A stretch of DNA of 64,000 bases, from assembly GCF_033954455.1 (NCBI RefSeq), contig NZ_CP121473.1, positions 2,590,501-2,654,500 of the forward strand, given 5' to 3'. Source of the stretch: Thiorhodovibrio litoralis. GTDB taxonomy: Bacteria > Pseudomonadota > Gammaproteobacteria > Chromatiales > Chromatiaceae. The notes below the pieces were generated by a model. That model was not told the DNA's origin. It ran no database searches and saw only the letters and a list, made by a program, of their open reading frames with translations. Below are positions 4,991 to 9,592 of this stretch, piece after piece; the stretch's first letter is position 1; the number at the start of each line of letters is the position of its first letter. Position numbers and translations under genes: made by a program.

Positions 4991-5125
4991 TATTGTGATC
5001 CTGCCAGCCGGGGCGGCGAAGGTTTGTGCGCCTGCGGATTATACTTGGCGTAAATCCATCCGGGCTGCCGCCGGGTGCATGCGGTGGGGCAGTCGCAAGA
5101 ATGTTATATAAGGAGTGATCTGCTG

Positions 5126-5821
5126 ATGCAAATGATCCGTGTCTGGGATGCCCCGACTCGCCTGTTCCACTGGTCCCTGGCGCTGCTGGTGCTGGCGGCT
5201 TTCCTGACTGGGCTGCAGGGTGGGAACTGGATGGTCTGGCACGAGCGTGCCGGCCTTGCCATCCTCGCGCTGCTGGTGTTTCGCCTGGTATGGGGAGTTG
5301 TCGGCTCCACCTATGCCCGCTTTGCCGAGTTTTTGCCGACCCCTGCGCGCGTGCTGGCCTATGTGCGTGGGGGCTGGCATGGCCTCGGGCACAATCCACT
5401 CGGAGCACTGTCGGTATTTGCCCTGCTTGGTGTGCTCTTGTTTCAGGTGCTGACGGGGCTGTTCGCCAACGACGACATTGCCTTTGACGGGCCGCTGTTC
5501 GCGCTGGTGTCAAAAGGGCTCAGCAACAGTTTGGCCGGTTTGCACAGGCAGGCCATCTGGCTGATTGGAGGGCTGATTGGGCTGCATGTTGCCGCGGCAT
5601 TGTTCTACACCCTGGTGCGGCGGCACAACATCATCCGGCCCATGGTGACCGGGGTGAAGCAGGTCGACGCGGGCAGCGACGCAGATTGGGCGCAACCGGC
5701 GCGAGGCGGCGGCCTGCCGGCTCTGCTTCTAGCGCTGGCGCTGGCTGGAGCAGTGGTTTGGGTTGCTGCCGGCGGGCTCTTGGCTCCGCCACCACCGCCA
5801 CCGCCGCCACCTGCCTGGTGA
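5126..5821 (+). CDS. Cytochrome b561-type membrane protein (partner of cytochrome c')
   Basis: 231 residues from the ATG at 5126 (AAGGAG ten bases upstream; an earlier in-frame ATG at 5075 adds a non-family leader). Di-heme cytochrome b561 of the CybB/hydrogenase b type: starts IRVWDAPTRLFHWSL with the first heme His, then His in WHERAG, LHRQAIW and GLHVAA, in four helices. A fifth helix and a Pro run at the C-terminus end the protein. Such genes are known beside cytochrome c' genes in purple bacteria, and here the two converge. It probably moves electrons between quinol and a c-type partner; the physiological role is unsettled. Confidence 0.85.
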   Translation: MQMIRVWDAPTRLFHWSLALLVLAAFLTGLQGGNWMVWHERAGLAILALLVFRLVWGVVGSTYARFAEFLPTPARVLAYVRGGWHGLGHNPLGALSVFALLGVLLFQVLTGLFANDDIAFDGPLFALVSKGLSNSLAGLHRQAIWLIGGLIGLHVAAALFYTLVRRHNIIRPMVTGVKQVDAGSDADWAQPARGGGLPALLLALALAGAVVWVAAGGLLAPPPPPPPPPAW

Positions 5822-5889: not shown

Positions 5890-6357
5890 TCAGTCGTCCT
5901 TGCGGAACTTCTTATGGCACGCCTTGCAGGATTCGCCAAGTGCGCCAAATGCCTGCTTGACCTCGGCTTCGTCGCCCATGGCGGCGACTTCAGCCATGTT
6001 GTTGGCGGCGGCGACAAAATCCCCTGCTACCTTGCCAACCTCGGCCTGATCGGTGAAGAGTTCAGGCTTCACGCGGGTTTCGACACCATTGACGGCCTTG
6101 TCGGTGCCTGGGCCATAGAGGGCGCCCATGCCAGAATTGGCGATGCCGGCGATGGCGTCGGCTGCTTTCTGAACTTGCTGCTGGTTGTAGTCGCCGGCGA
6201 GGTTGGCTTTGATCTTGCTCATGTTCCATGACATGAAGGTATACCCGGCCTGACGGGTGAGGATTTGCTCCTCGGGCTTCATGTCGGCGGCGATGGCAGC
6301 GCCAGCGAGACCAATAGACAGAAGAGCCGTGGCTGAGAAAGAGACAATAGACTTCAT
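5890..6357 (-). CDS. cycP: Cytochrome c'
   Basis: 155 residues with a signal peptide (cleavage near AIAAD) and a single C-terminal heme site CKACH (C144, C147, H148), the layout of class II four-helix cytochromes c'. These periplasmic high-spin hemoproteins bind NO and CO and are linked to NO resistance. Length is normal for the family. It converges with the cytochrome b561 gene, matching the known pairing. The 5' side carries two short tandem-repeat tracts (6377-6418 and 6491-6550). Confidence 0.93.
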   Translation of the reverse strand: MKSIVSFSATALLSIGLAGAAIAADMKPEEQILTRQAGYTFMSWNMSKIKANLAGDYNQQQVQKAADAIAGIANSGMGALYGPGTDKAVNGVETRVKPELFTDQAEVGKVAGDFVAAANNMAEVAAMGDEAEVKQAFGALGESCKACHKKFRKDD

Positions 6358-7529: not shown

Positions 7530-7775
7530 GGGTGAAAGTCTCTGTCTTGGAAAGGGGCGTCTGCAGTTGCAAGGCGCTCGGGGCCGATGAACCAACCCCG
7601 CATGATAGCGCCTTGTCGGTGTTGACGGCACCCTTGCGCGCAAAACAGGCATGCTATCCTTGCGCGCCCCGGAAATCGGCTGAGACGATTCGATCTGAAA
7701 GTAGATCCTGAGTCTTGGCCTGTGTGACCGTCCCCTGTATGACCTTCCGTAGGGAAAGCCGAAGGAGAATTTGCA

Positions 7776-8990
7776 GTGCCCAGCGATACCTTGACCTTTC
7801 TGGTCGCCACCGAGCGTGGCGCGCCTGCTGAACTGACCGAAGAACGCGCCAAGGCAGCCGTGCCCTTTGGCGGCAAATACCGGGTGATCGACTTCTCGCT
7901 TGCCAACTGTTTGCATTCTGGACTGCGGCAAATTCTCGTTCTGACACAATACAAATCCCATTCGCTGCACAAGCATCTGCGCGACGGCTGGGCACTGTTC
8001 AATGCGGAACTTGGCGAGTTCATCACCCCGCTACCGCCACAAATGCGCGTCGATGGTGGCTGGTATCTGGGCGTTGTGGATGCCTTGCGGCAAAACCGGT
8101 ACCTGATTGAGCGCAGTTCCGCGTGGCGTTTGTTGCTGCTCGACGGTGGGGTCGTCTACCGCATGGATTACGCCGAGCTGCTGCGCTGGCACGATGAGCA
8201 GGAGGCGCAAATCACTGCCGCATTGCGTCCGATCACGGATGAGTCCGCGGCAAGCGCTTACCGGATTGACTGCGATGATGCTGGCCGGATTCTGGAACTG
8301 CATGGTCCTGCTCCAACCCAGCCGCCGACCCAGCCGCCGACAGGTTTGGCGCCGATGGGCGTGGTGGTGGTCAACAAAGACTATCTGCTTAAGCATCTGG
8401 ACCATCTGATTCGAGTCAGCAATGGTCAGGCCGAGGCGGATTTCGTGGCAACCTTGCTCAAGCATTCCGGTGGCGCGTGCGCGATGGGATATCGCTTTGG
8501 CGGAGAGCGTGGGCGGGTATCGCAGGATCGCTACTGGAGCGACCTGGGCTCTGTGGATGCCTACTATCGAGCGCACATGACATTGCTCGAATCGCGCCCG
8601 TCAATCGACCTCTATCAACCCGGCTGGAACATTCTTACCTATCAGGGTCAGCACCCGCCGGCGCGCACCGTGCCAGGGCCCAGTTCGGGCAGCGAGGGGG
8701 TCTTCGTGAATTCCATGCTGGCGGCGGGGACCCTTATCCGCGGTGGTGCCGTCAATCGCTCGGTGTTTTTTTCCTGTGTCAAGGTTGATGACGGCGCCAT
8801 CGTCGATGGTGCTATTTTGTTCGATCGCGTTCAGGTCGGCGCAGGTGCAGAGCTTAACCGCTGCATACTCGACAAAGACGTGGTGGTCTCGCCAGGGGCG
8901 CGCATCGGCGTTGATCGCAAAGAAGATCGCGCGCGCTTTTTCGTCTCGCCCGAGGGCGTGGTGGTGGTGCCGAAGGGTGCGCGGGTTTAG
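7776..8990 (+). CDS. GlgC-family protein lacking catalytic residues
   Basis: 404 residues from a GTG with AAGGAG nine bases upstream. Clear relative of ADP-glucose pyrophosphorylase ([48 protein letters not shown], and a C-terminal left-handed helix of hexapeptides ending in [10 protein letters not shown]). However, the nucleotide loop GGRGTRL of active enzymes aligns with TERGAPA (residues 12-18), and the GDH that carries the metal-binding catalytic Asp (D142 in E. coli) reads DGGVVY (123-128), with Gly at the Asp position. The rest is well kept, so this is not ordinary decay. A regulatory subunit of an active GlgC elsewhere, or a sugar-nucleotide sensor, is my inference. Confidence 0.85.
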
Positions 8991-9235: not shown

Positions 9236-9592
9236 ATGTCCGATAAGCCAATGAATCAGAGCCGTCGCGATGCCGTCAAGCTCGTTCTCGGTGGTCTTGC
9301 CACGGTCCCCCTGATGAATCTGGTCGGCATGGCCGCTGCTCAGGCCGAGGAACTGCCGCACGTCGATCCCGCCACTGATCCGACCGCGCAGGCGCTGAAG
9401 TACAGCGAAGACGCGACCCAGTCGGTGCGTGAGCAAGAAGCGCGTCCGGGTCTGCCGGCTAACGAGCAGCACTGTGCGAACTGTCAGTTCGTGCTGGCTG
9501 ATTCCGGCGACTGGCGTCCGTGCAGCCTGTTCCCGGGCAAGGCTGTCAGCCAGAACGGCTGGTGCGCCTCCTGGACTCTTAAGGCTGGTTGA
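9236..9592 (+). CDS. hip: High-potential iron-sulfur protein (HiPIP)
   Basis: 118 residues. Twin-arginine signal (SRRDAVK, then a hydrophobic stretch ending MAAAQA) exports the folded protein to the periplasm. Four cysteines, C80, C83, C96 and C110, in the family order C-x2-C, PCSLFPG and GWCASW bind one 4Fe-4S cluster. In purple sulfur bacteria HiPIP is an electron donor to the photo-oxidised reaction-centre cytochrome. AGGAG stands 8 bases ahead of the ATG, and a strong hairpin follows, so it is probably monocistronic. Confidence 0.97.

Follow-up and report, generated by a model that had tools for sequence, protein, structure and literature searches.

The large subunit of plant ADP-glucose pyrophosphorylase (AGPase) is a regulatory paralogue of the catalytic subunit; its active-site changes are milder than those described below, and it is said to be the faster of the two subunits in rate. 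The two subunits are reported to differ 2.7-fold in rate (PMC2529307). Firmicutes have GlgD (TIGR02092), an inactive GlgC homologue found beside an active GlgC, and the excerpts of PMC9093745 that we draw on report altered kinetics and regulation in GlgC/GlgD tetramers, the absence of GlgD from Proteobacteria and a proteobacterial AGPase that is a single-subunit tetramer. GMPPA offers a further likeness, by description only: this dead nucleotidyltransferase can bind ligand, and it regulates GDP-mannose pyrophosphorylase B, the active paralogue (PMC11228364, in part), although it is eukaryotic and belongs to a different substrate family. In Escherichia coli GlgC, the regulatory clefts sit between the domains of neighbouring protomers, with R130 entering from the neighbour (parts of PMC11046441 and PMC6773804), and mutagenesis found R40 and R52 to be essential for activation by FBP (PMC6773804, same parts).

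Among the titles and abstract openings of the literature searched, we found no report of a catalytically dead GlgC in Proteobacteria, and the consulted passages of a survey that counted two glgC genes in Allochromatium vinosum make no mention of an inactive one (PMC4301808). A dead GlgC conserved among the purple sulfur bacteria would add a separate example of a catalytic subunit that became a regulator, and one whose orthologues can be studied in intact, half-eroded and fully eroded states. The eroded GlgC described here is, judging from its sequence and those of its orthologues, probably a regulator of a working enzyme and not itself an enzyme.

The glgC-like gene and its former active site

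The window, a 64,000-nucleotide stretch of the Thiorhodovibrio litoralis genome, carries a glgC-like gene (7776..8990, + strand) with a GTG start, identified as an ORF and by profile and homology searches, that encodes a catalytically eroded AGPase homologue of 404 aa; it and its orthologues are here named clade D. A ribosome-binding site, AAGGAG, is read directly 8 nt 5' of the GTG (7762..7767, +). Residues 2-400 align with E. coli GlgC (5l6s) at E 1.9e-82 (phmmer), and Pfam recognises both parts of the two-domain GlgC fold with its C-terminal beta-helix (PF00483 and PF24894). Glucose-1-phosphate adenylyltransferase models rank first among the NCBIfam matches, each below its cut-off, with 286.1 bits against 424.9 for TIGR02091 (GlgC) and 361 against 470 for PRK00725; a motif-intact C-type GlgC (L003, 417.8 bits) is also slightly under the TIGR02091 cut-off. 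An AlphaFold model (pLDDT 79, pTM 0.83; input alignment of 47 rows, intact and eroded mixed) matched E. coli AGPase 5l6v in Foldseek with TM 0.84 and rmsd 3.9. Confidence is low at residues 60-90 and 281-293, and the beta-helix (residues 295-404; 8658..8987, +) reaches pLDDT 86-97 in ten-residue blocks from 301 onward. The GlgC fold is thus predicted to be retained.

The original prediction read two losses from this gene, the nucleotide loop GGRGTRL aligning with TERGAPA and the catalytic GDH with GGV. Our alignment agrees on both. Since 55 of the 90 orthologues examined carry the same lesions, neither chance nor sequencing error accounts for them. In the former G-rich loop (residues 11-17; 7806..7826, +), AGGxGxR has become ATERGAP, with LAGGRGTRL pairing with VATERGAPA and one residue deleted. 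The former catalytic AGDHIY now reads DGGVVY (residues 123-128; 8142..8159, +): LAGDHIY pairs with LDGGVVY, which places G125 at D142 of E. coli, which we take to be the catalytic residue, and V126 at H143. At the former glucose-1-phosphate EKP motif (8301..8342, +) the protein reads HGPAP, and the EKP lysine is missing in all 55 eroded orthologues. The same region holds a short tandem duplication, TQPPTQPPT (8316-8342), probably recent because the same-genus copies L010 and L011 lack it.

All three elements of the catalytic GlgC motif (GGxGxR loop, catalytic Asp and EKP Lys) are therefore changed in the window protein. The rest of the gene had been described as well preserved, which overstates its preservation and understates the damage to the active site: S212, H143, R32 and EKP/K195 are lost besides the loop and D142, and residues 146-235 have drifted. 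K195 and S212 are presumably the glucose-1-phosphate residues. In the eroded clade as a whole, G27, R32, P43, H143 and K195 are lost in 55/55 sequences, S212 in 54 and D142 in 52, and the G28 position is acidic in 45. Judged from these alignments, the window protein is a full-length GlgC homologue with an erased active site.

Distribution, phylogeny and selection

Absence from all relatives, which the original prediction regarded as speaking against it, does not hold. Of 146 same-family genomes, at least 65 have a clade D orthologue; the call was made at about 320 bits or more, so that intact D of more distant kind may be undercounted. Some GlgC-like match is present in at least 136. The 65 comprise 50 eroded, 7 intermediate and 8 motif-intact cases, with the state in G015 and G038 set by >60% identity to the window protein and not by motif reading, and the frameshifted copy of G001 (L071) counted as intact on motif alone; the G120 copy (L070) is cut by a contig edge and has no start. 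In a scan of named genomes (best 80 of 398 candidates), eroded copies were found in Rhabdochromatium marinum, Thiospirillum, Thiohalocapsa, Halochromatium, Thiocystis, Allochromatium, Thiocapsa, Thiorhodococcus, Chromatium, Lamprocystis, Thiodictyon, Marichromatium and others, and intact copies in Methylobacter, Thiogranum, Thiohalobacter, Ca. Thiodiazotropha and others; the copy of a Ctena symbiont (L150) is intermediate. In a wider class sample of 274 genomes, 28 gave a match at E 1e-85 or better, a count that includes the genome of the window. The nine best of these besides the window all have DHIYRMDY, an EKP and WRDVGT, and the loop is intact in all seven that were readable, so full erosion is confined, as far as the copies read show, to Chromatiaceae and close kin. 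A plasmid search returned matches all below 60% identity, the best in Vibrio.

A quick tree, motif columns included, was built from 107 proteins (90 orthologues, 8 C-type and 9 other GlgCs); 96 clade D rows had been extracted, and five identical to retained rows plus the frameshifted L154 were dropped beforehand. The 55 sequences that lack the loop or D142, together with the intermediate L108, form one clade (SH-aLRT 99.6) that nests among 29 intact and 5 other partly eroded GlgCs. Minimum numbers of changes on this tree were one each for G27, R32 and D276, two for G28, and four each for D142 and K195. L108, from a Chromatiaceae MAG, retains the loop and GDH and has lost EKP, from which the glucose-1-phosphate lysine may have been lost first. 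Separate partial erosion is found in L063, L064, L066, L068 and L150, where K195 or D276 is lost and the loop and D142 are retained. The tree and the motif states establish the window protein as a predicted pseudoenzyme descended from an active-type gammaproteobacterial GlgC. A partial duplication is present in Lamprocystis purpurea, where a further fragment (L114:9619-9804), just 3' of the full copy, matches residues 340-401.

Membership of GlgD is ruled out by score, as the window protein reaches 148.8 bits on the GlgD model (cut-off 236.6) and 286 on that of GlgC; it also differs from GlgD in arising inside a gammaproteobacterial GlgC clade, in the tree of 90 orthologues and 17 other GlgCs. 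The plant enzyme is likewise a weaker match than E. coli GlgC (chain 9xuk_B, E 5.8e-30 against 1.9e-82, phmmer). The best reading is a non-catalytic AGPase paralogue that is not GlgD itself, one that resembles Firmicutes GlgD and the plant large subunits but would have arisen separately in Proteobacteria.

dN/dS across Chromatiaceae had been proposed as a check. The ratio (NG86) was 0.041-0.147 over 19 eroded pairs, 0.056-0.178 over 7 intact or intermediate pairs and 0.018-0.074 over 10 C-type pairs, with pairs not all independent and several dS values >1 that make those ratios rough. The eroded copies are under purifying selection, and clade D exceeded the C type in 8/8 genome pairs measured for both, by 1.5-3.1 times. 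Same-family copies were open over 398-428 aa in 61 of the 63 fetched, the exceptions being L070, at its contig edge, and L071. A pseudogene is rejected on the full-length ORF and the dN/dS of the eroded pairs. It is very improbable that the protein still has weak pyrophosphorylase activity or is a redundant copy that is slowly decaying. These readings would fit the retention of D142 in 3 of the 55 eroded sequences (Thiococcus pfennigii, Allochromatium warmingii and the MAG copy L121), the absence of the gene from some near-complete relatives such as G103, and the frameshifts in two draft copies, Chromatium okenii LaCa L154 (motifs not read) and L071 (motifs intact). However, the loop and EKP are gone even where D142 remains, nearly all fetched copies are open, and the low dN/dS is accompanied by newly fixed residues.

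Mean pairwise identity in eroded and intact D, respectively, was 78 and 83% over residues 1-59, 76 and 79% over 60-120, 67 and 70% over 121-145, 35 and 56% over 146-235 (with the EKP region), 77 and 76% over 236-294, and 70 and 63% over the beta-helix (295-404). Constraint fell mostly in residues 146-235, not in the beta-helix.

Allosteric residues and newly fixed arginines

The activator phosphate pocket of E. coli GlgC (PMC6773804) is represented in the window protein by R24 (E. coli R40; 7845..7847, +) and R36 (R52; 7881..7883, +), both retained in 55/55 eroded, 29/29 intact D and 17/17 other GlgCs. R113 (8112..8114, +) corresponds to R130, which reaches the adjacent subunit's regulatory cleft (PMC11046441, PMC6773804), and is present in 55/55 eroded and 29/29 intact D sequences and in 2/17 other GlgCs. 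By alignment, all 55 eroded sequences thus keep R40, R52 and R130 of the effector pocket, with K at R386, but not K39, where nearly all have H, Q, E or D; for R423 the alignment offers no counterpart. Q74, P103, Q105 and W113 are also retained in 55/55, of which Q74 and W113 are, we assume, signal residues. The 17 other GlgCs in the alignment all share R40, R52, Q74 and W113, so the retention of these four is not specific to a regulatory role; R130 is the exception. The window protein therefore resembles E. coli GlgC in its fold over nearly the whole length and in R40/R52, R130 and D276, and differs in the loss of the loop, D142, H143, K195 and S212, in K39 and in the unaligned R423.

Of the sites at least 95% conserved in 46 intact GlgCs, the eroded clade has kept 54 (≥90%) and lost 26 (<50%), the latter including G27, G28, R32, P43, D142, H143, the EKP residues, S212 and R275. 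Twelve sites are fixed (≥95%) in the eroded clade yet occur in less than half of intact D, P43A, R105, R108, R151 and R245 among them; three of these sites also occur in roughly a third to half of other GlgCs. R108 (E. coli L125; 8097..8099, +) and R151 (M168; 8226..8228, +) occur in 100% of the 55 eroded and 0% of the 29 intact D sequences, and R245 (Q265; 8508..8510, +) in 100% and 3%, respectively, and in 12% of the 17 other GlgCs.

These fixed sites, together with the K42, Y114 and D276 equivalents that persist in the window protein and 55/55 eroded orthologues (D276 is D256; 8541..8543, +), could belong to a neofunctionalised enzyme that uses them and the new arginines in some other sugar-phosphate reaction. 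We regard this as quite improbable, given the acidic G28 position, the near-universal losses at K195, D142 and S212, and the low conservation of residues 146-235, the least conserved part of the protein and unlike an active site under selection.

Partner GlgCs and the proposed regulatory role

The second, intact glgC that the original prediction proposed to look for proved to be two: a C-type copy (G000:C1:1565100-1566356) and a B-type copy (G000:C1:2982057-2983259) lie elsewhere in the window's genome, both motif-intact. A further GlgC, of A, B or C type, is found in 57/57 genomes with eroded or intermediate D, among the matches listed, and in G024 (82% complete) and G051 (90% complete), where no other GlgC was found among these matches, D is intact; erosion is thus seen only where another GlgC can catalyse. 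The intactness of these partners was read from motifs in the 17 tree copies and rests on TIGR02091 scores for the others: among the matches listed, 63 of 65 D genomes have a match over the cut-off, and in the other two (G004 and G076) the C copies were read. In G088, the A-type copy contains an internal TAG. Matches to the glgA family occur in all 35 D-bearing genomes tested (of 65), 34 of them over the cut-off.

C-type GlgC accompanies eroded D in 49 of 50 genomes vs 14 of 96 others, among the matches listed (Fisher p 8e-25; G054, at 478 bits to C, left out of the C-type count). This association is confounded by shared ancestry, which explains it in large part, and we do not count the p value as evidence. 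More weight falls on Rhabdochromatium marinum (G004) and G076, in which C is the only other GlgC found among the matches listed. The C type (L189-L218) is long-branched, occurs in at least 63 of 146 family genomes and has Phe at the E. coli Y114 position in 8/8 copies aligned. The B-type gene (within locus L002, G000:C1:2980566-2984378) is flanked, by eye, by UreD-like and urea ABC transporter ATPase-like ORFs, an odd location for glgC.

The retained non-catalytic role proposed originally gains support from the eroded orthologues across Chromatiaceae, their dN/dS, the allosteric residues in 55/55 and the two motif-intact GlgCs. Its specific form there is plausible on these sequence comparisons, and a subunit is favoured over a sensor. 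On balance, we think it probable that the protein is a non-catalytic regulatory partner of an active GlgC, in a mixed tetramer, most likely with the C type, that binds a sugar-phosphate effector. The window protein would assemble with an active GlgC of the same cell, presumably the divergent C-type copy, that type being the only other GlgC found in the two relatives above. The mixed tetramer would bind the effector through the window protein, and binding would set the activity or the effector sensitivity of the catalytic subunit (the direction of effect is one that we infer), so that glycogen synthesis would follow the state of carbon metabolism. By analogy with GlgD and GMPPA, a dead subunit that keeps its cleft and assembly domain could bind an effector and signal to an active neighbour.

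Several observations weigh against such a regulatory partner. No glg gene adjoins the glgC-like gene in the window (ORF reading) or occurs among ten neighbours of five other loci (Pfam; five of the ten without a match), and K39 is lost. Twelve genomes have C without D, among the matches listed, so C does not need D and D is dispensable. Of the seven genomes in which an A-type copy is the only other GlgC among the matches listed, G022 alone is fully eroded, with no C found.

era, recO or pdxJ lies nearby in 38 of 47 eroded loci (L079-L158; 55 eroded in all), 42 of the 47 having at least 5 kb upstream, vs 0 of 25 intact loci (of 29). Because these are housekeeping genes, the position supports vertical descent and is silent on function, and gene neighbourhood was rejected as a functional clue. 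The same position would also suit a stand-alone, homo-oligomeric sensor or scaffold whose regulatory cleft takes up a sugar phosphate or nucleotide sugar and which acts on, for example, glycogen synthase outside the GlgC tetramer. For such a protein the active site could be lost while allosteric residues and beta-helix were retained, and the new arginines may point to a newly acquired ligand site. It nevertheless seems unlikely, as the known inactive homologues of this fold, GlgD and GMPPA, act through an active paralogue, every genome with eroded or intermediate D has another GlgC among the matches listed, and the data suggest no partner besides GlgC.

Returning to the regulatory partner, a larger claim can be made only tentatively: a further independent origin of a regulatory AGPase subunit in CO2-fixing purple sulfur bacteria is possible, with its own effector site (R108, R151 and R245 with R130), pairing with C-type GlgC, and living intermediates in L108 and the copies of other genomes that keep the loop and Asp and have lost the EKP lysine. 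If true, some glycogen synthesis in Proteobacteria would depend on more than a single-subunit enzyme. Automatic calls of glucose-1-phosphate adenylyltransferase, and counts of glgC copies, may overstate catalytic capacity in these phototrophs.

In the window, the glgC-like gene sits between folD and a high-potential iron-sulfur protein gene just 3' of it (9236-9592, +), both named by reading. Among the 85 loci searched, folD was near the clade D gene only in G028, G076 and R. marinum. Also named by reading are a cytochrome-b-like gene with a polyproline tail (5075-5821, +) and a cytochrome c'-like gene ending in CKACHKK (5890-6357, -); homologues of both lie near the clade D gene in G028 and R. 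marinum.
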